A stretch of DNA of 64,000 bases from Candidatus Methylomirabilis lanthanidiphila (GCA_902196205.1 CABIKM010000011.1:1-64000), one strand, 5' to 3'. Shown: positions 11,705 through 34,701, counted from the first letter of the stretch. Notes: generated by a model from the sequence alone, not told the origin. Translations and numbers: made by a program.

Positions 11705-11754
11705 AAAATTCCCCCTCGCCCCCCTTTATCAAAGGGGGGGAACAGGGAGAATTG
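11705..11754. repeat. G6/C6 hairpin repeat, copy A
   Basis: AATTCCCCCTCGCCCCCC, a TTTATCAAA loop and then GGGGGGG, ending near GAGAATTGAG. It is one of eight family members in the window. Confidence 0.8.
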
Positions 11755-12317: not shown

Positions 12318-13595
12318 ATGAACACCATGCCTCTCCTCTTTTCAAGGTTGCGCCATTGTCCGATCCTCGATGCTGAGGGTCGGCTGGTAGGTCAGCTTAA
12401 GGACCTGATTATCCTGCCATTGGGGGTCCTGCCTCCGGTGACTAAGTTCGTGGTCCTGACGTCCGACAAGGAGGAGCTGATTCTGCCCTGGGAGGCCGTG
12501 GCTCGCCTGGAACAGGAGCCGGCGGCGATTCACCTGTCGTCGCAGCGTGAGGCGCTGCAGCCGATCGAGCCGCGAGCCGAAGAGATGGGGTTAGGCAGGA
12601 CGCTCGTGGATCGGAAGGTCGTAGATACGAAGCGCCACAAAGTGATCCGGGTTAACGACCTTGAGTTCCAGGAGGCGCAGGGACGACTACACCTGGTCGC
12701 GGTGGAGTGCGGGCTCCGGAGTCTCTTACGACATCTGGTCTCCGATGCCTCTGTTGAACGGATCGAGCGCCTGTTCAATGCGCGGTTGGAACGGGAGACG
12801 ATTGCGTGGGAGGTGGTCGAACCGGTCGAGACGGAGCTGACCAAGGCCAAGCACCGCGCAACCTATGCCAAACTGGCAAAACTCCATCCGGCCGACATCG
12901 CCGACATCATCGAGGAGCTGAACCCAAGTGAGCGCGCGACCGTGCTGGCGGCGCTGGATGAAGAGACCGCGGCCGAGACGCTGACCGAGACGGAGCCGGA
13001 GGTTCAGAGCTCGATGGTTCAGATGATGGAGAGTGAGCAGGCTGCCGACATCCTGGAGCGTATGGAACCGGACGAGGCGGCGGATATCTTGAGCGACCTG
13101 CCGGAAGAGAAGGCGCAGGAGCTTCTGGACACGATGGAAGAAGAGGAGGCTCAGGAGGTGGTTGAACTGCTGACGCACGAGGAGGACACCGCCGGCGGGC
13201 TGATGACCACTGAGGTGTTTACACTGCCGCCCGACCTCACCATGGTTGACGCGATTGGCCGGCTCCGCTCCGCTGAGGGGGCTGAGGCCGAGACGATCTA
13301 TTACATCTACGTCACCGACGACCTGGATCGGTTGCTTGGGGTGCTGAGCCTTCGAGATCTGATCCTGGCCGATCCGGGCCGGCGCCTTGATGACATTATG
13401 GTGCGGCAGGTCATCAGCGTGCGACCGGAGACCGACCTGCGCGAGGTTGCGGAGACCTTTACCAAGTATAATTTATTGGCAGTGCCGGTTGTAGACGAGG
13501 GGGGGGAGTTGAGAGGGATCATCACAGTCGATGACGTCCTGAACCTGATCCTCCCAATGATATGGAAGCAGCGCGTAGCGAAAAAGTACATTTAG
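12318..13595 (+). CDS. MgtE_N/CBS regulatory protein without a channel domain
   Basis: Residues 1-180 contain PRC-barrel-like modules (DAEGRLVGQLKDL, then VVDTKRHKVIRVNDL). Residues 188-290 are the superhelical MgtE N-domain (LHPADIADIIEELNP, repeated xxAADILERMEPDEAADIL units), and 295-420 are a CBS pair. In the MgtE Mg2+ channel these N and CBS domains sense cytosolic Mg2+ and gate the pore, but here the membrane domain is absent and the protein ends IWKQRVAKKYI. Its last 11 codons and stop are duplicated 21 kb away directly before an NRAMP gene, so it probably once formed an operon with that transporter and regulates it. Confidence 0.85.
   Translation: MNTMPLLFSRLRHCPILDAEGRLVGQLKDLIILPLGVLPPVTKFVVLTSDKEELILPWEAVARLEQEPAAIHLSSQREALQPIEPRAEEMGLGRTLVDRKVVDTKRHKVIRVNDLEFQEAQGRLHLVAVECGLRSLLRHLVSDASVERIERLFNARLERETIAWEVVEPVETELTKAKHRATYAKLAKLHPADIADIIEELNPSERATVLAALDEETAAETLTETEPEVQSSMVQMMESEQAADILERMEPDEAADILSDLPEEKAQELLDTMEEEEAQEVVELLTHEEDTAGGLMTTEVFTLPPDLTMVDAIGRLRSAEGAEAETIYYIYVTDDLDRLLGVLSLRDLILADPGRRLDDIMVRQVISVRPETDLREVAETFTKYNLLAVPVVDEGGELRGIITVDDVLNLILPMIWKQRVAKKYI
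13560..13595. repeat. 36-bp direct repeat, left copy (attL-like)
   Basis: The 36 bases from ATATGGAAGC to TACATTTAG are identical to 34642-34677. This copy is the in-frame 3' end of the MgtE_N/CBS gene. Confidence 0.95.
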
Positions 13596-13669
13596 GCTAC
13601 TCGACAGCACCCTCAATAGAATTAATAGGTTATAAGGTATATCCTGTCTCCTGTTCCGTCCTAGTACCT

Positions 13670-13681
13670 CATGTTGCTACC
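13670..13681. repeat. CATGTTGCTACC repeat, left end
   Basis: The same 12-mer recurs near the right end of the island (34523-34534), next to a one-base variant (34512-34523). Such repeats near element ends are candidate recombinase binding sites. Confidence 0.5.
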
Positions 13682-13721
13682 ATTTTGGGTTCCTCTCCTA
13701 AAAAAATATGGGCCTTTTTTC

Positions 13722-13750
13722 TTGACACACACTCGACAGGTGAGATAAAA
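13722..13750 (+). promoter_or_regulatory. Promoter of the cobalamin operon leader
   Basis: TTGACA (13722-13727), a 17-base spacer and ATAAAA (13745-13750) lie just upstream of the riboswitch, inside the AT-rich left end of the island. Confidence 0.55.
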
Positions 13751-13751
13751 G

Positions 13752-13990
13752 AAGGTGCCGGCTACTCCGGGCAAGGAGTAGGGGTTCTGTTTAGAAAATC
13801 TTTGCTGATGGCAGCCCGTGATGGGCTGGTGAGGGAAAGCGGTGAGCCCACTTGCATAAGGCGGGCAATCCCGCTGCTGCCCCGCAACTGTAATCGGCGT
13901 CGAAATCCGCATAGTGCCACTGCCCTGAACACAATACAGGGTGGGAAGGCGCGGATAGTAGGTTAAGCCGAGAGCCAGGATACCTCTTCA
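13752..13990 (+). ncRNA. Cobalamin riboswitch
   Basis: The conserved blocks of the cobalamin (B12) aptamer occur in order: GGGAAAGCGGTGAG (13833-13846), GCTGCCCCGCAACTGTAA (13876-13893), GCCACTG (13916-13922), GGGAAGG (13943-13949) and the B12-box-like AAGCCGAGAGCCAGGATACC (13965-13984). Binding of adenosylcobalamin should switch off the downstream biosynthesis genes. An antiterminator/terminator pair follows (14021-14082), which suggests transcriptional control. Confidence 0.92.
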
Positions 13991-14020
13991 TCACTACGAA
14001 TGCGGACCTTCCGAGGGGAG

Positions 14021-14082
14021 GGGTTCGAGATGAAAGAAGACGAAACATTCTCGAAAACCCAACCTTTGAGGTTGGGTTTTTT
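14021..14082 (+). terminator. Riboswitch expression platform: antiterminator and terminator
   Basis: AAAACCCAACCT (14054-14065) and AGGTTGGGTTTT (14069-14080) form a terminator hairpin followed by TTTTTTGTTTG. The 5' arm can instead pair with an upstream segment: GGGTTCGAGA (14021-14030) with TCTCGAAAACCC (14049-14060), a plausible antiterminator. The two folds are mutually exclusive, as expected for a riboswitch that controls termination. Confidence 0.7.
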
Positions 14083-14275
14083 GTTTGTAGGCCGTGAAGA
14101 GAGCGGTGGGCCCACAGATGGGGCGTCCCGCCAACCGCGGGTGCTCTCGGTCGCCCCGGAAGACCTTCCGGTTATCATCCGACTGCTCCTCCGTGAAGGC
14201 CCAAGGGACTATGTCCTCCGTAAGACCAAGGCAGGTAAGCTGCTTTTGAACCGGCGCGACGAGACCGTCGGGTAA
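14030..14275 (+). CDS. Possible small leader protein, unrecognised
   Basis: An 81-codon frame starts MKEDETFSKTQ after a strong AGGGGAGGGG ribosome binding site, and its codons 8-18 run straight through the riboswitch terminator. The C-terminal half, RVLSVAPEDLPVIIRLLLREG onward, has a plausible protein-like composition, but I recognise no family. It may be a real small gene expressed only on read-through, a leader peptide, or an accident of the frame. It ends just before the second terminator. Confidence 0.3.
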   Translation: MKEDETFSKTQPLRLGFLFVGREESGGPTDGASRQPRVLSVAPEDLPVIIRLLLREGPRDYVLRKTKAGKLLLNRRDETVG

Positions 14276-14302
14276 CAATTCAGTATTCCGATAGCCAGCG
14301 AG

Positions 14303-14371
14303 TTCTCACTCCGTATTGTGGAGTGGAGAAGGGTAGCCAGCCACGGATGAAGAGCCGTGGCTGGCTTTTTT
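14303..14371 (+). terminator. Second intrinsic terminator before cbiX
   Basis: A 12-bp perfect stem, AGCCAGCCACGG (14335-14346) with CCGTGGCTGGCT (14355-14366), is followed by a run of T. Just upstream a second hairpin forms from TTCTCACTCC (14303-14312) and GGAGTGGAGAA (14320-14330). It lies between the riboswitch and the first B12 gene, so it either attenuates the operon again or ends the small leader transcript. Confidence 0.8.
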
Positions 14372-14438
14372 GTTTGAGAAGCCTCTTGAATCACCCGGAG
14401 GCGGCTACTCTGAGGAGACGCGAGGAGGTTAACACGCT

Positions 14439-15284
14439 ATGACCTGTGAAGTTGTGCTCCTCGTTGGCCATGGCAGTCGCGAGCCTTCTGGAAACGAGGA
14501 GTTCCTCCAACTTTCGGAACAGATGAGGAAGGCTGTGGTCGGCGCCATGACGGAGGTTTGCTTCGTTGACTCGGCAGAGCCGGACATCCCCACCGGGTTA
14601 GACGCCTGTGTGCGCATGGGGGCGCAGGAGGTTGTGGTGCTGCCCGTGATGCTGTTCGCGGCCGGCCACGTCAAAGTGGAGATCCCATCTGAAATCGATC
14701 TGGCGCGAGTACGCCACCCAGAGATCAGGTTCCGCTACGGGCGACCCTTCGGGCTTCACCCGAAGATGCTGCAGATCCTTGACCAGCGCCTCGGGGAGAT
14801 CGAGGGCGCGCTTCCTGGCGCGCCAGAGGAGACGGCTGTCCTACTGGTCGGCCGTGGCAGCAGCGATCCGGACGCCAATGGCGACGTGTGTAAGTTGGCG
14901 AGGCTGCTGTGGGAGAGGCGAAGGTTCGGCTGGGTGGAGAGCTGCTTCATCGGCATCACCAAGCCCGACTTTGCTGAGGGGGTTCGTCGATGCGTGGCGC
15001 TGGGCGCACGACGGCTTCTGATCCTGCCGTACCTGCTGTTCTCAGGGGTCCTTATTCGACGGATCGGGATGCGCTTGCACGAGTTGCAGCGCTTGTACCC
15101 GAACATCGCCATGGGCGTGGCCAGATACCTTGAAGGCCATCCAAATCTGGTAACCGTACTACTGGAGCGGTATGAGGAGGCCCGTTATGGGACCGCAGTT
15201 ATGAACTGTGAGATATGCAAGCAACGAGTCTTGGTAGGTCATGAGGCAGTGACCCCTCTGCCTGCGGCCGTGGTGCCGGGATAG
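14439..15284 (+). CDS. cbiX: Sirohydrochlorin cobaltochelatase, CbiX long form
   Basis: CbiX inserts Co2+ into sirohydrochlorin, the entry to the anaerobic B12 pathway. The 281-residue protein has two chelatase halves: VVLLVGHGSREPSGNEEF with the active-site His near residue 11, and VLLVGRGSSDPDANGDV in the second half, where Arg replaces that His. The C-terminal tail carries MNCEIC (255-260), matching the MxCxxC motif reported to bind a 4Fe-4S cluster in long CbiX of Bacillus. It is the first gene after the riboswitch and has a strong GAGGAGG ribosome binding site. Confidence 0.93.
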   Translation: MTCEVVLLVGHGSREPSGNEEFLQLSEQMRKAVVGAMTEVCFVDSAEPDIPTGLDACVRMGAQEVVVLPVMLFAAGHVKVEIPSEIDLARVRHPEIRFRYGRPFGLHPKMLQILDQRLGEIEGALPGAPEETAVLLVGRGSSDPDANGDVCKLARLLWERRRFGWVESCFIGITKPDFAEGVRRCVALGARRLLILPYLLFSGVLIRRIGMRLHELQRLYPNIAMGVARYLEGHPNLVTVLLERYEEARYGTAVMNCEICKQRVLVGHEAVTPLPAAVVPG

Positions 15285-15296
15285 GAAGGTTACGCC

Positions 15297-15977
15297 GTGC
15301 AGCCTAAGCAGACCCTTCTTCCCACGTCACGCCACGTCACGGTCCTTGCGCCCGAGGCGATCGAGGTCGAGTCATTCCGGATCATCGAGCAAGAGATGGG
15401 GCCGCACGACTTCTCGGTCCTCGAGTGGCCGGTGGTGCAGCGGGTGATTCACTCGACGGCCGACTTCGATCTGGGTTCAAGTCTCGTCTTCCACCCGCGA
15501 GCCATTGAGGCCGGGATTGCCGCCATTCGGAGTGGGTGTGATGTTGTGGTGGACGTCCGGATGGTGCAGGCGGGGATCAGTGCTGCCCTGCTCGAACGGT
15601 TTGGCGGCCATGTGCGCTGCTTTATGGCCGATCCCGATGTGGTCGAGCTGGCCAAGGTGAATGGGACGACGCGAGCCATCCAGTGCGTGCGCAAGGCAGC
15701 ACAAAAGGTGCCAGGGGCGATCTATGCCATCGGCAACGCCCCGACGGCGCTCCTTGAGCTTGTGCGCCTGATCGAGGACGGCGAGGCGAGCGTAAGCCTT
15801 GTCATCGGGGTGCCGGTCGGCTTTGTGGCTGCGGTGGAATCGAAGGAGCAGCTCCGGACGCAGGGCCTGGTGCCTTATATCACCAATCACGGCCGGAAGG
15901 GTGGCACGCCCGTTGCCGTCTCGATCGTTAACGCCCTCTTGCGTATTGCGCAGGGGCGTGGGGAGCCGGCAAGGTGA
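15297..15977 (+). CDS. cbiC: Cobalt-precorrin-8 methylmutase
   Basis: CbiC moves the C11 methyl group to C12, turning cobalt-precorrin-8 into cobyrinate. The 226-residue sequence has the family features EAIEVESFRIIEQEM, the VIHSTADFDLGSSLVFHP block with the catalytic His, and GVPVGFVAAVESKEQL near the C-terminus. It starts at GTG 15297 after GGAAGG and overlaps the next gene by 4 bases (GTGA), as is usual in this tightly packed operon. Confidence 0.96.
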   Translation: MQPKQTLLPTSRHVTVLAPEAIEVESFRIIEQEMGPHDFSVLEWPVVQRVIHSTADFDLGSSLVFHPRAIEAGIAAIRSGCDVVVDVRMVQAGISAALLERFGGHVRCFMADPDVVELAKVNGTTRAIQCVRKAAQKVPGAIYAIGNAPTALLELVRLIEDGEASVSLVIGVPVGFVAAVESKEQLRTQGLVPYITNHGRKGGTPVAVSIVNALLRIAQGRGEPAR

Positions 15978-17572
15978 AGCTCTATGCGATCGGCGTGGGT
16001 CCTGGCGCCCCGGACCTGATCACCGTCCGGGCTGCCGGGATCTTGCGCCGAGTTCCCGTCATCTTCTGCCCGCGCACGGCCATGGGAACCACGAGTCAGG
16101 CGCTTACGGTCATCCGCCTTTGCCTGGACCAGAACCGACAGCAGATCGTTGAGCTTACGTTTCCGATGGAGAAGGAGCAGGATGAGCTTGCGGCGCATTG
16201 GGAAGAGGCTGCTTCAGAGCTCATGGCCCATCTCGTCAGGCACGGCGAGGGCGCCTTCGTCGCCCTCGGGGACGTGTCACTCTACTGTACTTTCACCTAC
16301 CTCCGGCCGTTCCTTGAGGCAGACCACCCGGAACTCGAGATCGAAGTGGTCCCCGGTATCCCCTCCTTCTCTGCGATGGCAGCCTCTCTCGGAATGTCTT
16401 ATGGTCAAGGGGATGACAAGATCGCCATGCTGCCCGCCACCTTCGCCCCGGATCGGCTCGCCCGTGTTCTCCGCGATTTCGACACCGTGATCCTGATGAA
16501 GATCCATCGGGTCCTGGACGATGTCCTCGACACGCTTGAACGGCTGAATCTGACCGAGCATGCCACGTTCATGACCAGGTGCGGGATGCCGGATCAGGAG
16601 GTGGTCTATGATGTTCGTACCCTTCGCGGCACGCGGCCCAGCTACTTCTCCATCATCCTGGTGTCGAAGAGTACCCGCCCGAGGGTCGCGGCACCGGCCA
16701 TGCCCCCGAAGATGGGTTCTGTATCTGCCCCTACTTCGACCGCCTCCCCGATGAGAGCCGAAGCACCCAGCAAGACTGGCGGTAAGCTGTTCCTGGTCGG
16801 ATTCGGGCCTGGCAACCACGATCACTTGACGTTCAAGGCTCAGGCGGCCATCGAAGAAGCTGAGGTCGTCATCGGCTACAGCACTTATATCCGCCTCGTG
16901 CGCGACCTGCTCAACGGTAAAGAGGTCCACTGCACCGGCATGACCGAGGAGCTGGCGCGGGCTGCCAAGGCCGTGGGTTTGGCCTATGCGGGTCGGAAGG
17001 TCGCATTGCTCAGCAGTGGCGACGTAGGCATCTACGGGATGGCGGGGCCGACCTTCGAGATCTTGAAGTCGAGGGGGTGGCGAAAAGGGTGCGGGGTAGA
17101 GGTGGAAGTGATCCCTGGGATCACAGCGCTCAGCGCCTGCGGGTCGATTCTAGGGGCGCCCCTCGGTCATGACTTTGCGGCTATCTCGCTGAGTGATCTG
17201 CTCACCCCTTGGGAGCTGATCGTCCGCCGACTTGAGGCTGCCGCCAGAGCGGACTTTATCATCGCCCTCTATAACCCCAAGAGCGGACGTCGGACCGAGC
17301 AAATCGTGGAAGCCAGGAGGATTCTTCTGACGTACAGGCGGCCTGACACGCCCGTGGGGATCGTGAAGAGCGGGTTGCGGAAGGGTGAGCACGTGGTCCT
17401 GACCACACTGGACGATCTGCTTAACCACGAGATCGGGATGCTGACAACGATCTTGGTCGGCAATACGACCACCTTCACGTATGAGGGTTTGATGATTACG
17501 CCACGTGGCTACCAGCATAAGTATGACCTGGATAACCTGGAAGGGGCGGCGACAGTCGCAGAGGAGCCGTGA
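15974..17572 (+). CDS. cobIJ: Fused CbiL-CbiH methyltransferases (C20 and C17)
   Basis: Two SAM-dependent corrin methyltransferases are joined in one 532-residue chain. Residues 1-235 are CbiL/CobI (cobalt-precorrin-2 C20-methyltransferase), starting KLYAIGVGPGAPDLITVRA. A Pro/Ala/Ser-rich linker spans about 236-268. Residues 269-520 are CbiH/CobJ (C17-methyltransferase and ring contraction), starting KLFLVGFGPGNHDHLTFKA and containing LSSGDVGIYGMAGP. The two steps are consecutive, so the fusion should channel an unstable intermediate. There is no extra FeS domain of the aerobic CobG type. Confidence 0.94.
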   Translation: MKLYAIGVGPGAPDLITVRAAGILRRVPVIFCPRTAMGTTSQALTVIRLCLDQNRQQIVELTFPMEKEQDELAAHWEEAASELMAHLVRHGEGAFVALGDVSLYCTFTYLRPFLEADHPELEIEVVPGIPSFSAMAASLGMSYGQGDDKIAMLPATFAPDRLARVLRDFDTVILMKIHRVLDDVLDTLERLNLTEHATFMTRCGMPDQEVVYDVRTLRGTRPSYFSIILVSKSTRPRVAAPAMPPKMGSVSAPTSTASPMRAEAPSKTGGKLFLVGFGPGNHDHLTFKAQAAIEEAEVVIGYSTYIRLVRDLLNGKEVHCTGMTEELARAAKAVGLAYAGRKVALLSSGDVGIYGMAGPTFEILKSRGWRKGCGVEVEVIPGITALSACGSILGAPLGHDFAAISLSDLLTPWELIVRRLEAAARADFIIALYNPKSGRRTEQIVEARRILLTYRRPDTPVGIVKSGLRKGEHVVLTTLDDLLNHEIGMLTTILVGNTTTFTYEGLMITPRGYQHKYDLDNLEGAATVAEEP

Positions 17573-18105
17573 GTCTGGAGAAGCGGGGGCTAATCATCGT
17601 CTACACGGGGGACGGGAAGGGAAAGACCACTGCTGCCCTCGGCCTTGCGCTCCGGGCGGTAGGGGCGGGGCTGAAGGTGCGGATGCTTCAGTTCATCAAG
17701 GGGGAGTGGAAGCCGGCGGAGCTGAAGGCGGCGAAGTGGCTCGCGCCCGCCTTCTCCATGGAGCAACTGGGGATCGGCTTTGTTACCTATAAGCCGAAGC
17801 GTCCTTATGAGGCGCATCTTCAGGCGGCGCAGGCAGCGTGGGCACAGGCCAAGGTCGAGATCGCCTCCGGCCACCAGGATCTGCTGATCCTGGATGAGAT
17901 CAACAACGCCTTTCAGCTCAATCTCCTCTCGGTCAGGGAGGTCGTGGGCGCGCTTCAGGGCAAGCCCGAAGCTCTCCATGTCGTCCTGACCGGCCGGGGG
18001 GCGCCGCCTGAGATTATCGAGCTGGCCGACCTCGTGACGGAGATGAAGGCGATCAAGCACCCCTATGAGAAAGGGATCCGAGCACAGTACGGGATCGATT
18101 TCTGA
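17569..18105 (+). CDS. cobO: Cob(I)yrinic acid a,c-diamide adenosyltransferase
   Basis: This CobA/CobO/BtuR-family enzyme transfers the adenosyl group of ATP to Co(I). The 178-residue sequence has the Walker A-like IIVYTGDGKGKTTAALGLALR at the N-terminus, MLQFIKGEWK, and LLILDEINNAFQLNLL with the family's conserved DE. It starts at GTG 17569, overlapping the previous stop. It lies mid-pathway in the operon and its product feeds the adenosylated branch (CbiP onward). Confidence 0.95.
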   Translation: MSLEKRGLIIVYTGDGKGKTTAALGLALRAVGAGLKVRMLQFIKGEWKPAELKAAKWLAPAFSMEQLGIGFVTYKPKRPYEAHLQAAQAAWAQAKVEIASGHQDLLILDEINNAFQLNLLSVREVVGALQGKPEALHVVLTGRGAPPEIIELADLVTEMKAIKHPYEKGIRAQYGIDF

Positions 18106-18122
18106 TTGCGAAGTGAACACCG

Positions 18123-18187
18123 GTCAGCTATCAGTGGTCGGCTCTCTGTAGTTTTCTTGAAAGCTGACGGCTGAGCCCTGAAGGCTG
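18123..18187. repeat. Heptameric repeats before cbiD
   Basis: GTCAGCT, ATCAGTG and GTCGGCT (18123-18143) face an opposite-strand set AAGCTGA, CGGCTGA, GCCCTGA (from about 18161). Together they form an inverted pair of heptad arrays in the only real gap of this part of the operon. Confidence 0.65.
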
Positions 18188-18194
18188 CTTTGTA

Positions 18195-19280
18195 ATGGCT
18201 GAATCCAAGAGAGGAAAGGGGCTGCGGGAGGGGTACTCGACCGGCTCCTGTGCCGCAGCCGCGGCCAAGGCGGCCGCGCTGTTGCAGCTCACCAGGACCG
18301 CGCCGGAAGCGGTGACGATTAACCTGCCGATCGGGGGGCGGGCAACCTTCAGGGTCCAGCAGTGCCATCTTGGGGCAGATTGGGCGAGCGCTTCTATCAT
18401 CAAGGATGCGGGCGATGACCCCGACTGTACGCACGGGGCGGAGATCGTAGCAGAACTCTCCTTGCGGGGAGAGCCCGGAATCGGAATCGAGGGCGGAGCG
18501 GGCGTGGGTCGGATTACGAAGCCGGGCCTAGGAATTGCGATTGGTCAGGCCTCGATCACGCGAGTCCCGCGCCGGATGATCAGCGAATCGGTCGGTGAAG
18601 CTTTGGCCCTTGGCGGATACGGCGGCGCCAGGGTGCTGATCACCGTGCCTCATGGTGAGGAGTTGGCGAAGCGGACCATGAATACCCGTCTGGGCATCGT
18701 CGGCGGCATCTCGATCCTGGGGACCAGTGGGATTGTCAAACCGTATTCGACCGCCGCCTACAAGGTGAGCATCGTGCAGGCGATCGATGTCGCGACCGCC
18801 ATCGGCTTGGATGAGGTGGTCCTCACCACGGGCGGGCGATCTGAGGAGTATGCTATGCGCCATTTCCGCCTTCGAGAAGAAGCCTTCGTGCAGATGGGGG
18901 ATTGGGTAGGCTTTGCTCTCACCTACCTGGCGAAGAAGAGGATCGGCAAGGTTAGTATCGCCGGCATGATCGGAAAACTGTCCAAGGTCGCGAATGGGGA
19001 CCTCCATACTCATGCCAGTCGGTCCGACGTCGACCTGGATGGTCTAGCTGCACTTGCCGCCTCCTGCGGGGCTGATGCTGAGACGATGCAGGCGGTGCGA
19101 CGCAGCAACACTGCTCGTGAGGCCCAGGAAATCGTCCTGGCACAGGATGTGGTAGGCTTCTTTGACCAGGTGGCCGAAAGGGTCGCTGGGCGGTGCCATG
19201 CCTACGTAAAGGGCGCATTCACGGTGCAGTGCATCCTTACCGATTCAGATGGGGCGGTCCTAGGACGCGCCACCGCCTAA
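18195..19280 (+). CDS. cbiD: Cobalt-precorrin-5B C1-methyltransferase
   Basis: CbiD methylates C1 in the anaerobic pathway and marks this as the early-cobalt route. The 361-residue protein opens with REGYSTGSCAAAAAKAAALL, the hallmark of the family, and continues with DAGDDPDCTHGAEI and ITVPHGEELAKRTMNTRLGI. Length is normal. The ATG lies after a heptad-repeat spacer and has only a weak Shine-Dalgarno, unlike most genes in this operon. Confidence 0.96.
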   Translation: MAESKRGKGLREGYSTGSCAAAAAKAAALLQLTRTAPEAVTINLPIGGRATFRVQQCHLGADWASASIIKDAGDDPDCTHGAEIVAELSLRGEPGIGIEGGAGVGRITKPGLGIAIGQASITRVPRRMISESVGEALALGGYGGARVLITVPHGEELAKRTMNTRLGIVGGISILGTSGIVKPYSTAAYKVSIVQAIDVATAIGLDEVVLTTGGRSEEYAMRHFRLREEAFVQMGDWVGFALTYLAKKRIGKVSIAGMIGKLSKVANGDLHTHASRSDVDLDGLAALAASCGADAETMQAVRRSNTAREAQEIVLAQDVVGFFDQVAERVAGRCHAYVKGAFTVQCILTDSDGAVLGRATA

Positions 19281-19290
19281 CGGAGAGGCG

Positions 19291-20553: not shown

Positions 20554-20566
20554 AAGGAGGCTCTCG

Positions 20567-21781: not shown

Positions 21782-21833
21782 TGGCGCATGTTCCGGAGCT
21801 CAGGTACCACGTTCCGGGCCTGAAACGAGACGG

Positions 21834-25294: not shown

Positions 25295-25305
25295 GGTGTA
25301 GGGTG
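25267..25305. repeat. Heptameric repeat (AGGGTGT/AGGGTAT type)
   Basis: AGGGTGT, AGGGTAC, (AAGAAC), AGGGTAT, AGGGTGT, AGGGTGG span the end of cbiG and the gap before cbiA. The same heptads occur at 46887-46956 and 47792-47805. Confidence 0.8.
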
Positions 25306-25317
25306 GAACAGGAAAGC

Positions 25318-26769: not shown

Positions 26770-28328
26770 GGTCGGCATACGGCTTGGCACCGAGCCTCAT
26801 GGTCCAGGGGACCAGCTCATCGGTGGGGAAGAGCGTGCTGGTAACGGCCCTCTGCCGGATCTTCGCCTCGGCGGGGTATCGGGTCGCGCCGTTCAAGTCA
26901 CAGAACATGGCGCTCAACTCTGCCGTCACTGTTGATGGCGGGGAGATCGGGCGTGCCCAGGCGGTTCAAGCGGAGGCGGCAGGCGTGGAGCCTACGGTGG
27001 ACATGAACCCTATCCTACTCAAGCCGGAAGAGGATGCCCGCTGCCAGGTGGTGGTCCGTGGGCGCCCGGTCGGGAGTTTCCATTTCAGCGAGTATAACCG
27101 GATGAAGCCGGATCTGCTGCCGGTGATTCGGGAGAGCCTGGAGCTTCTCCGGGGGGCCTACGACCTGGTGCTGATCGAGGGGGCTGGAAGCCCGGCTGAG
27201 GTGAACCTGAAGGCGGATGAGATCGTGAACATGCGGGTCGCGCGCCTGGCCGAGTCGCCGGTCCTGCTGGTTGGCGATATCGATCGCGGCGGCGTCTTCG
27301 CGGCGCTGGTGGGGACGCTTGAGCTGTTAGAGCCTACGGAGCGGGCGGCGGTCCAGGGTCTCGTCATCAATAAGTTTCGGGGCGACCCGGCGCTGCTCAC
27401 CACGGGCCTTGAATTTCTCATGCGCCGAACAGGGGTGCCGGTGCTGGGTGTGCTCCCCTACTGCTCGGATCTTCAGGTCCCGGCAGAGGATTCGATGAGC
27501 CTTGATGGGGGTTGCTGGCAGGGGAGGGGCGAGGGCTGGCTCGATATCGTCGTGATCCGTCTGCCACGCATCGCCAACTTTGACGACTTTGAACCTCTGG
27601 CCCAGGAGCGGGGTGTGCGCCTTCGCTTCATCCGTCACGCGCACGAATTGAACGGCGCCGACGCGATCATCTTGCCGGGCACCAAGAGCACTGTGACGGA
27701 TCTTGAGTTCCTCCAGCAAAACGGCCTCGCGAGGCTGATTTGCGCCCGTGCGGCATCGGGCACGCCGGTACTGGGGATCTGCGGTGGCTACCAGATGCTG
27801 GGACAGGAGATCCGCGATCCAAAGGGGGTTGAATCGGATCGCATGAGGGTGCCAGGTCTGGGCCTGCTGCCGGTGGTCACCGAATTCTCCCCGCTCAAAA
27901 CCACCCAGCGGGTGAGCGCCCGTGTCACTGCGCGAGTCGGCCTGTTCGCGACGGTGGCAGGCTCGATGGTGCAGGGGTATGAGATCCACATGGGGCAGAG
28001 TCGCATCATAGAAGTGCCTTCTCCCTGCTCTGAGCCCCTTGAAGGGCCCTTCACCATCACCGAGCGACAGGGGGTTGCCACCGAGGAGCGGGATGGTGCG
28101 ATGGATCAGACGGGGAATATTGTGGGGACCTACCTTCATGGACTCTTCCGAAACGGCCCTGTGCGGCGGACCTTCCTCACATACCTGGCCGACCGGAAGG
28201 GAGTGGCGCCTGACCCCGGCTGGGGGACGTGCAGCTCGGTCGAAGCCACCTACGACGGGCTTGCCAGGCTGGTGGCTTCGCATCTGGATATGGCCCGGAT
28301 CGCCAAACTGGTCAATTTGCCCCTTTGA
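26766..28328 (+). CDS. cbiP: Cobyric acid synthase
   Basis: CbiP/CobQ amidates the b, d, e and g side chains of adenosyl-cobyrinate diamide. The 520-residue sequence has the N-terminal P-loop MVQGTSSSVGKSVLVTALCR, FKSQNMALNSAVT, the DMNPILLKPEEDARCQVVV block and the C-terminal amidotransferase nucleophile in VLGICGGYQMLG. The start is GTG 26766 in a GTGA overlap with cbiA. Confidence 0.97.
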   Translation: MRSAYGLAPSLMVQGTSSSVGKSVLVTALCRIFASAGYRVAPFKSQNMALNSAVTVDGGEIGRAQAVQAEAAGVEPTVDMNPILLKPEEDARCQVVVRGRPVGSFHFSEYNRMKPDLLPVIRESLELLRGAYDLVLIEGAGSPAEVNLKADEIVNMRVARLAESPVLLVGDIDRGGVFAALVGTLELLEPTERAAVQGLVINKFRGDPALLTTGLEFLMRRTGVPVLGVLPYCSDLQVPAEDSMSLDGGCWQGRGEGWLDIVVIRLPRIANFDDFEPLAQERGVRLRFIRHAHELNGADAIILPGTKSTVTDLEFLQQNGLARLICARAASGTPVLGICGGYQMLGQEIRDPKGVESDRMRVPGLGLLPVVTEFSPLKTTQRVSARVTARVGLFATVAGSMVQGYEIHMGQSRIIEVPSPCSEPLEGPFTITERQGVATEERDGAMDQTGNIVGTYLHGLFRNGPVRRTFLTYLADRKGVAPDPGWGTCSSVEATYDGLARLVASHLDMARIAKLVNLPL

Positions 28329-28339
28329 CCGTGACATCC

Positions 28340-29449
28340 ATGACGATCGTCCCGCGATCTGAGGTCGTGAGGCTTGTGAGGGCGGAGCATGGGGGTCGGC
28401 TGCCTCTCGTGACCGACCTTCCGGCACATGCGCGTGAGGGTCTCCTTGACTTTAGCACCACCGTCCATGCCTACGGCCCACCTCCTGAAGTGCGACAGGC
28501 TCTCCAGGAGGCCTGTCTGGAGGAGTACCCGGATCCTGACGCCTCGGCCTTCTGTGCCCTCGCCGCCAAGGTGGGCGGCGTACCGGTGAAGTGGGTGATG
28601 GCCGGCAGCGGCTCGGTGGAGTTCTTGCGCCTGATCCCCCTCTCCTATGTACGGCCACGTGACCCAGTGCTCATCATCGGTCCCACCTTCGATGAATACC
28701 GGGTCGGGGTAGAGGTGATGGGGGGCATCATCCACGAGGTGCGGGCCAAACCCGAGAGAGGCTTTCGCTCGGATATCGGTGCCGTCGTCAAAACCATCAG
28801 ATCGGTTCGCCCGCGCCTGATCTTTCTCTGTAATCCCAACAACCCAACCGGGCATTATCTGTCCGAGGCGGAGGTGTGTGAGATCCTCCGTGCCTGCGGA
28901 CAGGGGATCGTCGTCATGGATGAGGCCTTTATCAACTTCGTGGCGAAGCCGTGGGCCTCTACACGATTGTTGCAGGCCGGCCCGGTTATTTTGGTCCGAT
29001 CCATGACCAAGGACTACGCGCTTCCTGGGGTCAGGCTGGGGTATGCCTTGGGGGATCCAATGCTGCTTGATCCGCTGCGCAAGGTACAGGTGCCATGGAG
29101 CGTCAGCAGTCTCGCTCAGGCAGCCGGGATAGCTGCCTTCTCAGAGAAGGACTACCTGCCAAAGGTGATGCGCGTGGTTCGGGAGGATGCGCGGGTCTTC
29201 GTCGAAGAACTCCGGGCGGAAGGGCTCGGGGTAGTGCATGAGGCGGCCCATTTCTGTCTTATCTCCGTGGCCGATGGGGATGAGGCGGCTGAGTCGCTGT
29301 GTCGCTTCGGGATGTTGGTTCGATCCTGCCGATCGTTTGGGCTGAAGGCGTACATCCGAGTCGGACCCCGCCGTCCCGAGGAGAATGCGCGCCTCATTCA
29401 GGCGATGAGAACAGCGCATAGCTATCAACCATCAGCTTTCAGCGAGTGA
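28340..29449 (+). CDS. cobD: L-threonine-O-3-phosphate decarboxylase
   Basis: This PLP enzyme makes (R)-1-amino-2-propanol phosphate, the linker to the nucleotide loop. It is a HisC-like aminotransferase with FLCNPNNPTGHYLS, the VMDEAFINFV segment and the PLP lysine in VRSMTKDYALPGVRLGY. The B12 context supports CobD over histidinol-phosphate aminotransferase. ATG 28340 is chosen; a GTG three codons earlier is possible. Its C-terminal HSYQPSAFSE comes from an AGCTATC-type heptad repeat and is not part of the family. Confidence 0.9.
   Translation: MTIVPRSEVVRLVRAEHGGRLPLVTDLPAHAREGLLDFSTTVHAYGPPPEVRQALQEACLEEYPDPDASAFCALAAKVGGVPVKWVMAGSGSVEFLRLIPLSYVRPRDPVLIIGPTFDEYRVGVEVMGGIIHEVRAKPERGFRSDIGAVVKTIRSVRPRLIFLCNPNNPTGHYLSEAEVCEILRACGQGIVVMDEAFINFVAKPWASTRLLQAGPVILVRSMTKDYALPGVRLGYALGDPMLLDPLRKVQVPWSVSSLAQAAGIAAFSEKDYLPKVMRVVREDARVFVEELRAEGLGVVHEAAHFCLISVADGDEAAESLCRFGMLVRSCRSFGLKAYIRVGPRRPEENARLIQAMRTAHSYQPSAFSE
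29419..29446. repeat. Heptameric repeat at the cobD 3' end
   Basis: AGCTATC, AACCATC, AGCTTTC, AGCGAGT: four degenerate heptads that encode the last residues of CobD. Confidence 0.6.
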
Positions 29450-29465
29450 GGGGCGAAGCGCACTG

Positions 29466-30548
29466 ATGACGCACTGGATCAGGCCTGTACCGCCCTTGGA
29501 TGAGGAGGCGATGCGGGAGGCGAGACGGCGTCAGGGGAGGCTGACCAAGCCGCCCGGGAGCCTGGGCCGCCTGGAGGGGCTGGCCGTCCACCTGGCCGGC
29601 ATGACGGGCCGCGTGCGTCACCTCAAGCTGCGGCATAAGGCGGTGATCGTGATGGCAGCGGATCACGGGATCACCGCCGAGGGGGTGAGCGCCTATCCGG
29701 CTGAGGTGACGGCGCAGATGGTGCAGAGCTTCGCTCGTGGGACGGCGGCGATCAATGTCCTGGCCCGCACCATGGGCGCTCGCGTCGTCACCGTGGACAT
29801 CGGCGTGAGAGGGCCCGAGGTACCGGGCGCGGGGTGGGTGGTGCGGAAGGTGGGGCCAGGCACGCGCAATTTCCTGGCGGAGCCGGCGATGAGCCGAGTG
29901 GAGGCGATCTGCGCCATCGAGACGGGGATCGACATCGTTGAGCAGGAGCGGAGCAGAGGGCTTGACCTGCTGGCGACGGGAGATATGGGAATCGGCAACA
30001 CCACCGCCTCAAGTGCCATTACGGCTGTCCTGTGCGGCAGGACTCCGGCCGAGGTGACCGGCCCGGGAACGGGCCTGTCTCACGAGCAGATCGTGAGAAA
30101 AGCCGATGTGATCGAACGGGCGATCACGTTGCACCGTCCAGACCCCTCAGATCCGCTTGACGTGCTGGTCAAGGTTGGAGGATTCGAAATAGGGGGGATT
30201 GTGGGGGTGATCCTGGGCGCCGCAGCCTCGCGCGTTCCAATCCTGATCGATGGGTTCGTCTCCGGGGCCGCCGCACTGATCGCGGCACGCCTGGCCCCTG
30301 TGACCCGAGACTATCTAATCGCCGGTCACCGATCGACGGAGCCAGGACATCAAGCCATCCTTGACCACCTCAACCTCGAGCCGATCCTTGACCTAGGGCT
30401 CCGGCTTGGGGAAGGGACGGGGGCCGTACTGGCGATGCCGATCCTCGAGGCGGCGGGTCGTCTCCTGGATGAGATGGCGACCTTTGAAGAGGCGCGTGTT
30501 TCTCATCGATCCCCCGACCACGCTCAGGACGGGTCTCAAGAACGATGA
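29466..30548 (+). CDS. cobT: Nicotinate-nucleotide-dimethylbenzimidazole phosphoribosyltransferase
   Basis: CobT makes alpha-ribazole phosphate from DMB and nicotinate mononucleotide. The 360-residue protein shows RQGRLTKPPGSLGRLEGLA, VIVMAADHGITAEGVSAYP, LLATGDMGIGNTTASSAI and LRLGEGTGAVLAMP, where the glutamate is the catalytic base. Together with BluB it shows that the cell attaches DMB, so it should make true cobalamin. It overlaps cobS by 4 bases. Confidence 0.97.
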   Translation: MTHWIRPVPPLDEEAMREARRRQGRLTKPPGSLGRLEGLAVHLAGMTGRVRHLKLRHKAVIVMAADHGITAEGVSAYPAEVTAQMVQSFARGTAAINVLARTMGARVVTVDIGVRGPEVPGAGWVVRKVGPGTRNFLAEPAMSRVEAICAIETGIDIVEQERSRGLDLLATGDMGIGNTTASSAITAVLCGRTPAEVTGPGTGLSHEQIVRKADVIERAITLHRPDPSDPLDVLVKVGGFEIGGIVGVILGAAASRVPILIDGFVSGAAALIAARLAPVTRDYLIAGHRSTEPGHQAILDHLNLEPILDLGLRLGEGTGAVLAMPILEAAGRLLDEMATFEEARVSHRSPDHAQDGSQER

Positions 30549-31291
30549 CGGCTCTCATGCAGGCGCTGTCGTTTCTCACCATCGTCCGGCTCGCGAGGCG
30601 GGCGGGGGGTGAGGGTGCGCCAACCGCCTGGACAGCCGCCTGGTTTCCGCTGGTGGGTCTGGCGTTGGGGGTTGGGCTTGTCGGGTTGGATCGCCTCCTC
30701 GCCTTCGTGTTGCCGAGACCGGTGGGTAGCACGCTGCTGGTTGTGGCTTGGGTGGCCGTGACAGGGGCGCTCCACCTGGACGGGCTCATGGACTGCGCCG
30801 ATGCGCTCCCTGGCGTCCGCGGGGAGGCGGATCGGCTGCGGATTCTCAAGGATCCAGCGCTCGGGGCTTTCGGCGTCGCGGCAGGGTGTTTTGCCATTCT
30901 CCTGAAGGTGATGGCCCTCGCCAGCACTGAAGGCGCCATGCGGCTGCAGGCGCTGGGGCTGGCGCCGGCCATGGGACGCTGGGCAGTCCTGCTGGTGATG
31001 AGGCTCTTTCCTTACGCGAATCGACCGAATGGCGGGACCGGCGCGGGCATGACTCGGACGCTTGGTCTGCGGCACCTCGCCGTCGGAACGGTGGTCGCGT
31101 TGGTCGCGGGTGCAGCCTGCGGCTTCAGAGGGGTGGCAGCCATGAGCCTCGCCGGAGGGGTCGCCCTACTGATCGCACAGTATGCAGGACGGCGGCTTCC
31201 CGGACTGACAGGGGATGTCTATGGGGCGGTGATTGAATGCACGGAGATGACCACGCTTCTCCTCTTTTCTGCACACCGGATCGCGTATTGA
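30545..31291 (+). CDS. cobS: Adenosylcobinamide-GDP ribazoletransferase
   Basis: CobS is an integral membrane enzyme that joins adenosylcobinamide-GDP to alpha-ribazole (phosphate). The 248-residue protein has several hydrophobic helices and the conserved GALHLDGLMDCADALPGVRG and RILKDPALGAFGVAA motifs with metal-binding Asp residues. The ATG overlaps the cobT stop. The final base of its stop codon is the first base of cbiZ. Confidence 0.95.
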   Translation: MTALMQALSFLTIVRLARRAGGEGAPTAWTAAWFPLVGLALGVGLVGLDRLLAFVLPRPVGSTLLVVAWVAVTGALHLDGLMDCADALPGVRGEADRLRILKDPALGAFGVAAGCFAILLKVMALASTEGAMRLQALGLAPAMGRWAVLLVMRLFPYANRPNGGTGAGMTRTLGLRHLAVGTVVALVAGAACGFRGVAAMSLAGGVALLIAQYAGRRLPGLTGDVYGAVIECTEMTTLLLFSAHRIAY

Positions 31292-31953
31292 TGGCCGGTT
31301 CAACTCTGCTCACCACGGGCTTCCCGGGCCTCGCGCTTGAGGCTGATGAGGCGGTGCTGCGGATCGCCTCAGAGACGCCGTTAGCGGTCCTCTCATCAGC
31401 GGTGGTCGGGGCCGAGCTGGTGGTCGCGCAGGAGTTCCTCGTGCTGCGGGTCCCACGCGATTACGCCGGGACAGCGCCGGCGGCCGATCTTCATGCCGTG
31501 GCGAGAAGGCGGGGACTGGATCGACCGTTCGTCGGGTTCATGACGGCGGCGCCTGTCGCCGTGCCGCGCCTTGCCCTCGAGACGCATGACCATGCGCGTG
31601 TTCTGGCCGTGGCTACGATGGGGCTTGGGAACCTTTCCGCCGCCGGCCTGAGTCCGCCCGCCCCGCGTCCGCAGGGGACGATCAATCTGCTCCTGTTCAT
31701 CGATGCGCACCTTTCCCGGTCGGCAACGGTGGGGGCTGTGATCACCGCGACTGAGGCCAAGGCGGCGGCCCTGGCCGCGAGGGGCCTCCGGACATTGGAG
31801 GGGTGGCCCGCCTCAGGGACTTCTACCGATGCCATCGTGATTGCCAGCACGGGCCATGGACCCAGCCTGGACTATGCGGGTCCAGTCACGACAGTCGGGT
31901 GGCTCATCGGCCTGGTGGTCCGCCGAATCCTCCAAGATCCGAGCCTGCCATGA
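31291..31953 (+). CDS. cbiZ: Adenosylcobinamide amidohydrolase
   Basis: CbiZ cleaves the aminopropanol-linked loop from adenosylcobinamide (and pseudo-B12 in some bacteria) to give adenosylcobyrate, allowing the lower ligand to be replaced. The 220-residue form from ATG 31291 has VATMGLGNLSAAGL, TINLLLFIDAHLSRSATVGAVITATEAKAAAL and STGHGPSLDYAGP, all typical. CbiZ is best known from archaea and salvaging phototrophs; here it is part of a de novo operon and overlaps cbiB by 4 bases. Confidence 0.92.
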   Translation: MAGSTLLTTGFPGLALEADEAVLRIASETPLAVLSSAVVGAELVVAQEFLVLRVPRDYAGTAPAADLHAVARRRGLDRPFVGFMTAAPVAVPRLALETHDHARVLAVATMGLGNLSAAGLSPPAPRPQGTINLLLFIDAHLSRSATVGAVITATEAKAAALAARGLRTLEGWPASGTSTDAIVIASTGHGPSLDYAGPVTTVGWLIGLVVRRILQDPSLP

Positions 31954-32942
31954 CGGATGCCGCTGTCGTCCTCCTCCTGGCGCTTGTCCTCGACCTTCTG
32001 TTGGGCGAGCCGCCCAATCGGGTGCATCCGGTGGCGTGGATGGGCGGCTGGCTTTACTGGGTGGAGCGGGCGGCGCAGGGGCGCACCTCACGGTCGCAAC
32101 TGTTCATGGGGGGCGCAGGGGTCCTTGCCGGCCTGCTTACGATCCTGTTGCTGACAAAGGCTCTGGTAATGGGTTGTGAGGCGTTGGTGGCACCGGCGCG
32201 CCTCGTGGCCTCTGCGCTACTCCTCAAAGTCACTTTCTCCTGCCGTCGTCTACTCGGGGCGGCCGAGGAGATCCGGCGGGCCCTCGGGCGCCTGGATTTC
32301 ACCGAGGCCAGACGGTTAGTGGGCTGGCACTTGGTCAGCCGTCCGACTGCGGAGCTATCCGGCGAAGAGATCGCAGGGGCCACGGTGGAGTCGCTCGCCG
32401 AGAATTTCACCGATGCGGTGGTCGCGCCGATCCTCTACTGGCTGGTCGGCGGGATTCCGCTCGCGATGGCCTACCGGTTTCTCAATACCGCAGACGCCAT
32501 GTTGGGCTATCGTGACGCGAGCCATGAGTATCTGGGCAGGGTGGCCGCGCGGCTGGATGACGCAGCCAACCTCCTCCCCGCTCGATTCGCGGCGGCACTG
32601 CTCCTGTTGGGTGGTGGGATAGTGGGAGGGAACCTCCGAGAGGGAATTCGGGTGCTCCTTCGAGACCGTGGGGTGACGGCCAGCCCCAACGCCGGCTGGA
32701 CTATGGCGGCCATGGCGGGGCTTCTCCGAGTCCAATTGACCAAACGCGGGGCGTATGCGCTCGGCGACTGCGGTACCCCTGTAACTGCTCAGACTATTGC
32801 CAAAGCACAGCGTGTTGTGGCAGCAGCCATGCTCCTGCTCCTGGTAGTCGTCCTTGCCAGCCTCTCACGTGATGCCCTGCACCTCACACCTCACACCTCA
32901 TACGCCTTTGGGATCCATGGCGTCCACTTTCCAAGATCGTAG
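31950..32942 (+). CDS. cbiB: Adenosylcobinamide-phosphate synthase
   Basis: CbiB condenses adenosylcobyric acid with aminopropanol (phosphate) at the membrane. The 330-residue protein starts with LLLALVLDLLLGEPPNRVHPVAWMG, typical of the family, and contains VESLAENFTDAVVAPILYW and AYRFLNTADAMLGY. ATG 31950 overlaps the cbiZ stop. The end (LHLTPHTSYAFGIHGVHFPRS) derives from a TCACACC heptad repeat and extends past the normal C-terminus into cobC. Confidence 0.95.
   Translation: MTDAAVVLLLALVLDLLLGEPPNRVHPVAWMGGWLYWVERAAQGRTSRSQLFMGGAGVLAGLLTILLLTKALVMGCEALVAPARLVASALLLKVTFSCRRLLGAAEEIRRALGRLDFTEARRLVGWHLVSRPTAELSGEEIAGATVESLAENFTDAVVAPILYWLVGGIPLAMAYRFLNTADAMLGYRDASHEYLGRVAARLDDAANLLPARFAAALLLLGGGIVGGNLREGIRVLLRDRGVTASPNAGWTMAAMAGLLRVQLTKRGAYALGDCGTPVTAQTIAKAQRVVAAAMLLLLVVVLASLSRDALHLTPHTSYAFGIHGVHFPRS
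32878..32905. repeat. Heptameric repeat (TCACACC type) at the cbiB 3' end
   Basis: CTGCACC, TCACACC, TCACACC, TCATACG: four heptads inside the 3' end of cbiB. Confidence 0.65.
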
Positions 32943-33558
32943 CGGCCCGGTTCGCTGCGCAGCGATCCTCCTGGTTCGCCATGGCGAGGCGCGTGGTGGG
33001 GGCGAGGGGCGCTACATCGGCGTCACCGACCCGCCCCTGAGCGCCCGCGGAGAGCGGCAGGTCAGCCGCCTCGCGATGCGGCTTTCGGCAGAGCACGTGG
33101 AGCGGGTGATGAGCAGTGACAGGCGTCGGGCGCTCATGACGGCGGAGGTTATCTCGCGAGTCCATAGGCTTGGCGTAGAGGTCCGAAGCGAGCTTCGGGA
33201 GCTCAACTTCGGTACGTGGGAGGGGGCTAGCTTTGAGGAGCTGATGCTCCGCGACAGGGTCCGGTTTCGCTCGTGGCTGGCTCAGCCGTGGCGACATCGG
33301 CCTCCAGGTGGCGAGTCCCTTGCTTCGCTCTGGCGAAGGGCCCGCGCCTTATGGGAGGATCTCTGTGCTGCGCCAGAAGGATCAACGACGATTGTGATCG
33401 GCCATGGGGGATCGCTCAGGGCAATGCTGGGGGTTGCCCTCGGCCTGCCGTCCAAGACGCTTCTATCGTGGGAACTGACCCCGGGGTCGATCTCCTGTCT
33501 GGGAGTGACCCATGGGAAGGCGTGGTTGCGGTATGCCAACGACACCTGCCACCTTTAG
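32917..33558 (+). CDS. cobC: Alpha-ribazole phosphatase
   Basis: A 213-residue histidine phosphatase with the catalytic motif LLVRHGEARGGG near residues 18-29 and the second histidine in VIGHGGSLRAML. In this operon it should remove the 5' phosphate from alpha-ribazole phosphate or adenosylcobalamin phosphate. ATG 32917 is preferred; it lies within the end of cbiB. Phosphoglycerate mutase-like family members have many substrates, so the assignment rests on context. Confidence 0.88.
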   Translation: MASTFQDRSGPVRCAAILLVRHGEARGGGEGRYIGVTDPPLSARGERQVSRLAMRLSAEHVERVMSSDRRRALMTAEVISRVHRLGVEVRSELRELNFGTWEGASFEELMLRDRVRFRSWLAQPWRHRPPGGESLASLWRRARALWEDLCAAPEGSTTIVIGHGGSLRAMLGVALGLPSKTLLSWELTPGSISCLGVTHGKAWLRYANDTCHL

Positions 33559-34102
33559 ACCCCACATCGTCCTGGTGCTTGGCGGCGCCGCAAGCGGCAA
33601 AAGCGAGTTTGCTGAACGTTACGCCGTCAGCCTTGGAGGTTCGGTCTGCTATGTGGCGACCGCTGAGCCCGGGGATGAAGAGATGCGGTGCCGGATCGAG
33701 CGTCACAAGGCCCGCCGGCCACCCGAGTGGAGAACGAGGGAGGTGACACGCGATCTGGCTTCGCACCTTACTGCCGACTCCAGGAGTGAGATCATCCTCG
33801 TGGAGAGCCTAGGGATGGTACTCGCCAATCACATGGCGGTCGTCCCTCAAGCCGGCTTCGGCCCCCTTGAGCTGCGCGGCATCCTTCGAACTGAAATAGG
33901 GGCGCTGGTCGGCCTCTCAGCGTCATGGAAGGCGGTGCTGATCGTCGTCTCGGAGGAGGTTGGGCTCAGCCTTGTGCCGCTCACTCCATTTGCGCGCGGC
34001 TTCTCGGAACAGCTCGGATGGTGTAATCAACACACCGCCGCGCTGGCGGATGAGGTCTACCTCGTTGTTGCGGGGATCTCGATCCGACTAAAGCCGCAGT
34101 GA
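33533..34102 (+). CDS. cobU: Adenosylcobinamide kinase / guanylyltransferase
   Basis: CobU phosphorylates adenosylcobinamide and transfers GMP to it. The 189-residue sequence has a P-loop LVLGGAASGKSEFAERYA and the segment RIERHKARRPPEWRTRE, where the His is the expected guanylylation site. It is the last gene of the B12 operon; the ATG lies 26 bases inside cobC. Some residues between 85 and 130 diverge from the usual CobU pattern but the overall length is normal. Confidence 0.93.
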   Translation: MPTTPATFRPHIVLVLGGAASGKSEFAERYAVSLGGSVCYVATAEPGDEEMRCRIERHKARRPPEWRTREVTRDLASHLTADSRSEIILVESLGMVLANHMAVVPQAGFGPLELRGILRTEIGALVGLSASWKAVLIVVSEEVGLSLVPLTPFARGFSEQLGWCNQHTAALADEVYLVVAGISIRLKPQ

Positions 34103-34235
34103 TCCTTCGATAATTCGGCTCGGTCTCGGAAATAACCCTTCGTGTTTCACCCGTGCTCGGTAGACCCTTTCCCAAAGACGCGTGGAACACCCTCCTGCGC
34201 TACGTACAGGAAGGAGTCCTCAAGGTGCTGTAACA

Positions 34236-34273
34236 GGTCAACGACCCTCGACTAAAGTAGAGGGTCGTTGACC
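34236..34273 (+). terminator. Probable terminator of the cobalamin operon
   Basis: A 14-bp perfect stem, GGTCAACGACCCTC (34236-34249) and GAGGGTCGTTGACC (34260-34273), is followed by TTAATAAAA. It lies about 130 bases after cobU. The T-run is short. Confidence 0.6.
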
Positions 34274-34511
34274 TTAATAAAATGCGACCTGACCCAGGTC
34301 GAGTTGCTTTTTCCGGGTGCCCCTGGAGTGTCCGTGGGTGCTCTGCCTAGTTTTTCAACGGCGGTCTGGTTGGCGGCTGGAATGAGTGGACCGCCCGCAA
34401 GGCATTGCCCTTGGGCCTTGAATCGCTCCCGGTAAAGGGTTGCGCCAACCGCAGTCCTTTTGGTACACTTTCCCCATCCCATGCGACCTTCGGCTCCGTC
34501 CTTTGAACAAT

Positions 34512-34534
34512 CATGCTGCTACCATGTTGCTACC
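34512..34534. repeat. Tandem CATGCTGCTACC / CATGTTGCTACC repeats
   Basis: Two 12-mers share one base at their junction; the second is identical to 13670-13681 at the other end of the island. They are candidate recombinase binding sites. Confidence 0.5.
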
Positions 34535-34641
34535 GGTTGTAGCCAAATCAGGGGTACCCAGGAGCCTAATTAGAGCAGCGTGATCGTCGATTGTATGCAT
34601 AGTTATGTGGTGTGAGATGCGCATGGGTTGGTCTGAAAATA

Positions 34642-34677
34642 ATATGGAAGCAGCGCGTAGCGAAAAAGTACATTTAG
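34642..34677. repeat. 36-bp direct repeat, right copy (attR-like)
   Basis: Identical to 13560-13595. It preserves the last 11 codons and stop of the MgtE_N/CBS gene, now separated from the rest of that gene by the island. Confidence 0.95.
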
Positions 34678-34701
34678 CCGTCCCCACGCTCAGGACTCTC
34701 G

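Follow-up and report, generated by a model that had tools for sequence, protein, structure and literature searches.

The stretch of DNA considered here, 64,000 nucleotides of the Candidatus Methylomirabilis lanthanidiphila genome (CABIKM010000011.1, positions 1–64,000; hereinafter, the window), harbors an island of ca. 21 kb bounded by identical 36-bp direct repeats and devoted almost entirely to a riboswitch-controlled operon for de novo biosynthesis of cobalamin (B12). The island very probably results from the insertion of a B12-operon element by a tyrosine integrase at the 3′ end of a gene coding for an MgtE_N/CBS-domain protein, and in its present state it resembles the cis-mobilizable elements (CIMEs).

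According to the proposed scenario, a circular (or prophage-like) element carrying the riboswitch-controlled operon would have entered the cell, and the integrase, bound to TGCTACC-type arm sites on both sides of the attachment (att) core, would have inserted it at the 36-bp site that closes the MgtE_N/CBS gene. On the left (attL), the host gene would have been made whole again by the gene end that attP contributed, and the displaced original end would have come to lie 21 kb to the right, beside the gene of an NRAMP transporter (attR). The integrase would either have been lost, perhaps through a deletion with one end at the left arm site, or have acted from another element all along. The cargo would have given cobalamin synthesis to a lineage whose relatives are apparent cobalamin importers. 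Judging from its sequence, the whole locus looks like a stranded mobile island that made a B12 maker out of a B12 importer.

Repeats, Junctions, and Empty Sites

The features defining the insertion site are as follows:

12318–13595, plus strand: gene of the MgtE_N/CBS-domain protein (425 aa; Pfam MgtE_N and CBS), the putative target, its 3′ end serving as attB; orthologs in nine congeners
13560–13595, plus strand: left 36-bp repeat, putative attL core; the same 36 bp is single-copy in G001, G003, and G009
34642–34677, plus strand: right 36-bp repeat, putative attR core, followed by the native spacer
34702–35937, plus strand: NRAMP transporter gene, the native neighbor, adjoining the MgtE_N/CBS gene in relatives

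The two repeats match without a mismatch, and the match grows to 40 bp with one mismatch when counted from 13556 and 34638. Their start-to-start spacing is 21,082 bp, and a search of the whole assembly (3.05 Mb, 90 contigs) revealed these two copies only. The chance expectation for an exact 36-bp repeat in 64 kb is of the order of 1e-13, and the repeat size falls inside the 8–60 bp range of att repeats (PMC5704250). The left copy encodes, in frame, the C-terminal 11 residues of the MgtE_N/CBS protein plus the stop (12 codons), so the host gene retains its 425-aa product and its stop after the insertion; downstream of the right copy come the native spacer (TAGCCGTCC...) and then the NRAMP gene. 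The preliminary description of this locus, made from the sequence alone, had recognized the perfect repeat, the restoration of the host frame on the left, and the stranded gene end beside a native gene on the right, and all three observations held. The first base after the stop differs between the copies (TAG-G at the left one, TAG-C at the right one and in the relatives having TAG), and so does the base preceding the 36 bp, on the opposite side. Therefore, the crossover should have occurred within the 36 bp.

The uninterrupted single-copy site, which the same description proposed to look for in related genomes, was found in nine congeners. In eight of them (G001, G002, G003, G005, G006, G008, G009, and G010), the MgtE_N/CBS and NRAMP genes are joined on one contig; in G004, the same gene order is spread over two overlapping contigs, making the ninth empty site. 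A second insertion at this site in G004, considered in view of an extra 3′ end on the other contig, was ruled out, since the two contigs overlap at the empty site. Each of the nine sites carries one copy of the 36-bp site, which is exact in the three nearest congeners (G001, G003, and G009) and is represented by variants in the others. The stop-to-start gap between the two genes in relatives is 24 bp (three cases measured). Five further congeners yielded no full-length match to the MgtE_N/CBS gene. Both copies flanking the island agree with the allele found in the nearest relatives, which suggests an origin of the element's attP in this clade or its adaptation to it.

The insertion also parts the NRAMP gene from the MgtE_N/CBS gene (34638–34702 in the window). 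No sigma-70-like promoter was found before the NRAMP gene, and its expression may have been changed by the insertion.

Arm-Type Motifs at the Island Ends

Both ends of the island are hallmarked by short motifs resembling the arm-type sites of tyrosine integrases:

13671–13681, plus strand: left-end arm-type motif ATGTTGCTACC, 75 bp inside the left repeat, its heptamer being 79 bp away from the core
34513–34534, plus strand: right-end tandem arm-type motif ATGCTGCTACC ATGTTGCTACC, 107 bp from the core

The heptamer TGCTACC is found at three places in the window, each lying a short way inside one of the island ends, on the same strand in all cases, and none of 100 shuffled sequences reached three such places. 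This genome has a single occurrence of the tandem pattern TGCTACCATNNTGCTACC, at 107 bp from attR; altogether, the pattern was counted 11 times in 10 of the 95 genomes of the phylum analyzed, and the reversed control pattern was not encountered. A literature search on the TGCTACC motif returned unrelated sequence matches only.

In viral contigs, the tandem pattern was detected in 40 stretches, and in 14 of these a tyrosine integrase gene lies within 300 bp. Given the expected proximity of 0.075 per locus, this corresponds to P of ~6e-7, or ~7e-6 without duplicates; the stretches are partly dependent, two pairs being near copies and two pairs coming from one contig each. All five viral integrases tested were confirmed by Pfam as PF00589. 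Three prophage-like contigs display the full arrangement (L175, with a 45-bp exact repeat, L176/L184, and L195/L204): the motif, 118–120 bp, and a tRNA-derived att repeat at one end, and the repeat, 49–55 bp, and the motif at the other. In several viral contigs, the integrase gene ends 9–13 bp past the second motif.

When the island ends are rejoined, the order becomes the motif, 107 bp, the 36-bp core, 79 bp, and the motif again, i.e., ~240 bp from motif to motif; elsewhere this distance amounts to 222–231 bp (L180, L189, L191, and L203) or 281 bp (L181). By comparison with the integrase-adjacent motifs, candidate arm-type sites flank the core of the rebuilt attP on both sides, and the rejoined ends would represent a typical tyrosine-integrase attP. 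The motifs at both ends provide an independent check of the geometry of site-specific integration at a gene 3′ end that had been proposed from the repeats.

At two other places in the phylum, L226 and L227 (G084:C237 and G086:C51), an intact tRNA gene ends 50 bp from the motif, the TGCTACC pair lying downstream of it; at some others, tRNA pieces were noticed nearby by eye. No integrase was found within the 20-kb stretch at L226 or L227, which are possibly further integrase-less islands.

Missing Integrase and Class of the Element

Several points weigh against the integrase-mediated origin. The island, annotated end to end, contains no integrase, excisionase, relaxase, or transfer genes, and none of the ten PF00589 matches in the same genome has the motif beside it. 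The core-to-left-arm gap is 79 bp vs. 49–55 bp in the prophages, and in the left motif ATTT-TGGGTTC stands in place of ATTT-TGCTACC, so that the usual pair is short of its second heptamer. The role of the motif as an arm site is likewise deduced from its position. One PF00589 match with a heptamer was considered and rejected as a chance heptamer inside an integrase gene fragment.

No PF00589 match was found on the contig of the island, and six-frame reading of 13596–13795 and 34103–34640 revealed no integrase remnants. The expected position of the integrase is occupied by the start of the cobalamin-riboswitch leader: the second motif at the left end is cut short after TGCTACCATTTTG and gives way to the operon leader, as would fit a deletion that took the integrase. 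A conjugation or mobilization module, the mark of integrative and conjugative elements (ICEs) and integrative and mobilizable elements (IMEs), was not found in the island either. At the same time, attL and attR are retained and the integration and transfer genes are absent, as in CIMEs. The locus is seemingly best called an integrase-less (CIME-like) genomic island and not a self-mobile element; the earlier designation as an integrative element suits its origin and does not describe its present abilities.

A satellite-like element that never possessed its own integrase is a doubtful but conceivable variant. Such a vitamin operon with attP arms would borrow the integrase of phages or integrative elements of the TGCTACC-arm group and could still be moving between B12-importing bacteria, spreading prototrophy.

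The absence of an integrase from the island is also what would be expected if the operon had been acquired by short-homology or RecA-dependent recombination, e.g., after transformation, with the repeat being incidental. Such an origin is very unlikely: it accounts neither for the att-like spacing and direct orientation of the arm motifs at the two ends nor for the junction lying exactly at the gene end with the host gene left whole.

Distribution and History of the B12 Genes

The genes of corrin ring synthesis are patchily distributed in the phylum. CbiD was detected in 4 of the 95 genomes and CbiC in 5, i.e., in the same four and as a contig-edge fragment in G018. Neither gene was found in the 13 congeners other than G002. 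The case which would have spoken against a mobile origin, namely all close relatives carrying the cluster at this place, does not hold, and nearly all genomes of the phylum lack ring-synthesis genes. The two other members of the order with related B12 genes, G002 and G025, harbor them elsewhere (their B12 contigs are incomplete), and the site discussed here is empty in both.

Full-length MetH, the B12-dependent methionine synthase, was detected in this genome and in 8 of the 12 congeners searched, and 9 of these 12 possess two cobalamin riboswitches each. In this genome, the second riboswitch locus precedes the genes of a TonB-dependent receptor, a periplasmic binding protein, a FecCD permease, an ABC ATPase, and TonB, which is consistent with B12 import. 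Overall, the relatives appear only to import cobalamin, as far as gene content can tell.

The four phylum sequences cluster together in the CbiD tree with a support of 100. Within this cluster, G002, a congener, is grouped with G025, a member of another family (88% identity; branch support 86, unstarred), and not with this genome (72%); therefore, the B12 genes seem not to follow the species. Misbinning of the G002 B12 contig is possible because this contig is short and the bin is 81% complete. The nearest named relatives of CbiD are ~53% identical (Nitrospira) in a collection that may omit genomes close to the window. On plasmid records, CbiD is found in Thermus, Leptospira, and Candidatus Manganitrophus. 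No B12 relatives of the island were encountered in viral contigs, and the phage and plasmid records contained distant ones only.

These data bear on the possibility that the island is ancestral at its site and was removed from every other lineage through precise recombination of its flanking repeats. The repeats do allow precise excision, and related B12 genes exist in two other order members; still, this history is highly improbable. The nine congener sites, that of G002 included, are empty, and so is the site in G025, the B12 genes of G002 and G025 residing elsewhere; the other 13 congeners lack CbiD and CbiC; and the tandem arm motif was found in no other congener. Many independent precise losses would be required, and the empty site at deeper branches, which serves as a check on this history, has largely been seen already. 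The least probable explanation, a foreign contig misjoined during assembly or binning, draws on the draft state of the genome (90 contigs) and on the repeat at both joins, a classic misassembly point, but it faces a 128.6-kb contig with genus-typical synteny on both sides, a bin 99.98% complete with 0.25% contamination, in-register arm motifs at both ends that a misjoin would not yield, and the single supported group of the four phylum CbiD sequences.

Cargo of the Island

All genes of the island are located on the plus strand, in the following order:

13793–14005, plus strand: cobalamin riboswitch RF00174 (88.4 bits vs. the gathering score of 31.5); homologous leader in G025
14053–14081, plus strand: terminator-like hairpin right after the riboswitch, likely the expression platform
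14335–14366, plus strand: second terminator-like hairpin, ahead of the first structural gene
14439–15284, plus strand: CbiX-type cobalt chelatase (Pfam CbiX)
15297–15977, plus strand: CbiC, precorrin-8X methylmutase
15974–17572, plus strand: CbiL-CbiH fusion
17569–18105, plus strand: CobA/BtuR corrinoid adenosyltransferase
18195–19280, plus strand: CbiD, the marker for the distribution searches
19291–20553, plus strand: CbiE-CbiT fusion (CbiET)
20567–21781, plus strand: YncE-like beta-propeller protein, not a B12 gene; not at this place in G025
21753–22739, plus strand: S41 peptidase, not a B12 gene
22738–23421 (start approximate), plus strand: BluB, dimethylbenzimidazole synthase
23418–24209, plus strand: CbiF
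24206–25294, plus strand: CbiG
25303–26769, plus strand: CbiA/CobB
26766–28328, plus strand: CbiP/CobQ
28229–29449 (limits of the open reading frame, ORF; true start probably near 28330), plus strand: CobD/CobC-like aminotransferase
29466–30548, plus strand: CobT
30545–31291, plus strand: CobS
31237–31953, plus strand: CbiZ adenosylcobinamide amidohydrolase
31803–32942 (ORF limits), plus strand: CbiB
32854–33558 (ORF limits), plus strand: CobC-like alpha-ribazole phosphatase
33512–34102, plus strand: CobU
34235–34274, plus strand: strong hairpin 3′ of the operon (−29.8 kcal/mol, z −8.3)

The cobalt-early de novo set (CbiX/K, L, H, F, G, D, C, E, T, A, P, and B) and the nucleotide-loop genes are all situated in the island. 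Neither the CbiJ reductase nor the uroporphyrinogen-III methyltransferase was encountered there, the search for both being confined to the island. The initial impression of one coherent B12 cargo is borne out by the riboswitch and the run of B12 genes, with the exception of the beta-propeller and S41 peptidase genes (20567–22739). The promoter surmised ahead of the riboswitch was not recovered: the consensus scan upstream gave no sigma-70 match, and a TTGACA hexamer is visible by eye near 13722.

The two genes foreign to the pathway split CbiET from BluB, which are neighbors in G025; a propeller gene with 37% identity is located at 11269–12351 of L072, the G025 locus. Between the riboswitch and the first gene, a small ORF (14030–14275), ending in YVLRKTKAGKLLLNRRDE, shows a weak match to HemP (PF10636, E 0.004, below the cut-off), and the G025 leader in L072 contains two similar small ORFs (HemP E 0.0018 and 0.097). 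A conserved HemP-like peptide encoded in the leader of a cobalamin riboswitch may deserve attention. At the right end of the island, 34169–34234 represent the stranded last 22 codons and the stop of a small gene of the phylum, 91% identical to G009:C10:337055 and also present in G011 and G022; this piece suggests a passage via a related host. Palindrome-like repeats that have CCCCCCTTT...AAAGGGGGG cores and occur in both orientations are interspersed in the window at 11693–11748, 36045–36094, and 37349–38406.

Significance and Comparison with Known Systems

De novo synthesis of B12 requires about 20 genes, and its patchiness among bacteria is an old question. If the insertion scenario is correct, a nearly full pathway was gained together with its riboswitch in one site-specific event, in a lineage whose well-covered congeners keep MetH and B12 riboswitches but yielded no ring-synthesis genes, so a one-step gain of prototrophy becomes testable at a defined site. 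The pattern TGCTACCATNNTGCTACC could also serve as a signature for islands with a lost integrase, which are missed by searches based on integrase genes.

A literature search of partial coverage retrieved no near-complete B12 operon as the near-sole cargo between integrase-type att sites at the end of a protein-coding gene, with recognizable arm sites and congeneric empty sites, and a search for cobalamin biosynthesis genes together with ICEs returned unrelated matter only. Genomic islands and plasmids with B12 genes are known, and to this extent the earlier suggestion that such elements had not been described does not stand. Thus, the B12 genes of Lactobacillus reuteri are situated on a genomic island (PMC3084715, citing Morita 2008), and there, too, B12 prototrophy is unusual in its group. 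As far as the part of that account considered here goes, the L. reuteri island differs in being joined to propanediol use and marked by low GC, with no att architecture mentioned, and it belongs to a different phylum. In Geobacter lovleyi, de novo cobalamin genes reside on a mobile replicon, pSZ77 (PMC3403914), which is a plasmid with an incomplete set (several late genes are chromosomal) and no integration site.

By architecture, the island is closer to CIMEs, att-bounded islands deprived of the integration and transfer genes (PMC5704250), and to the Dehalococcoides ssrA islands lacking integration modules (PMC3146451): attL and attR are kept, integrase and transfer genes are missing, and the insertion is at a gene 3′ end. 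Unlike these, it is present as a single copy without a tandem neighbor and has a protein-coding target; its cargo is one cofactor operon, whereas the Dehalococcoides islands carry dehalogenase genes. With the TGCTACC-arm tyrosine-integrase prophages in tRNA genes (L175, L176/L184, L195/L204, L180, and L202), the island shares the direct att repeat, the motif orientation, and a similar spacing, but in those prophages the motif adjoins an integrase gene and the targets are tRNA genes. Against this background, a B12 cargo that consists of a single operon between att sites, with arm sites that can be reconstructed and a series of empty sites in the same genus, appears to be new.

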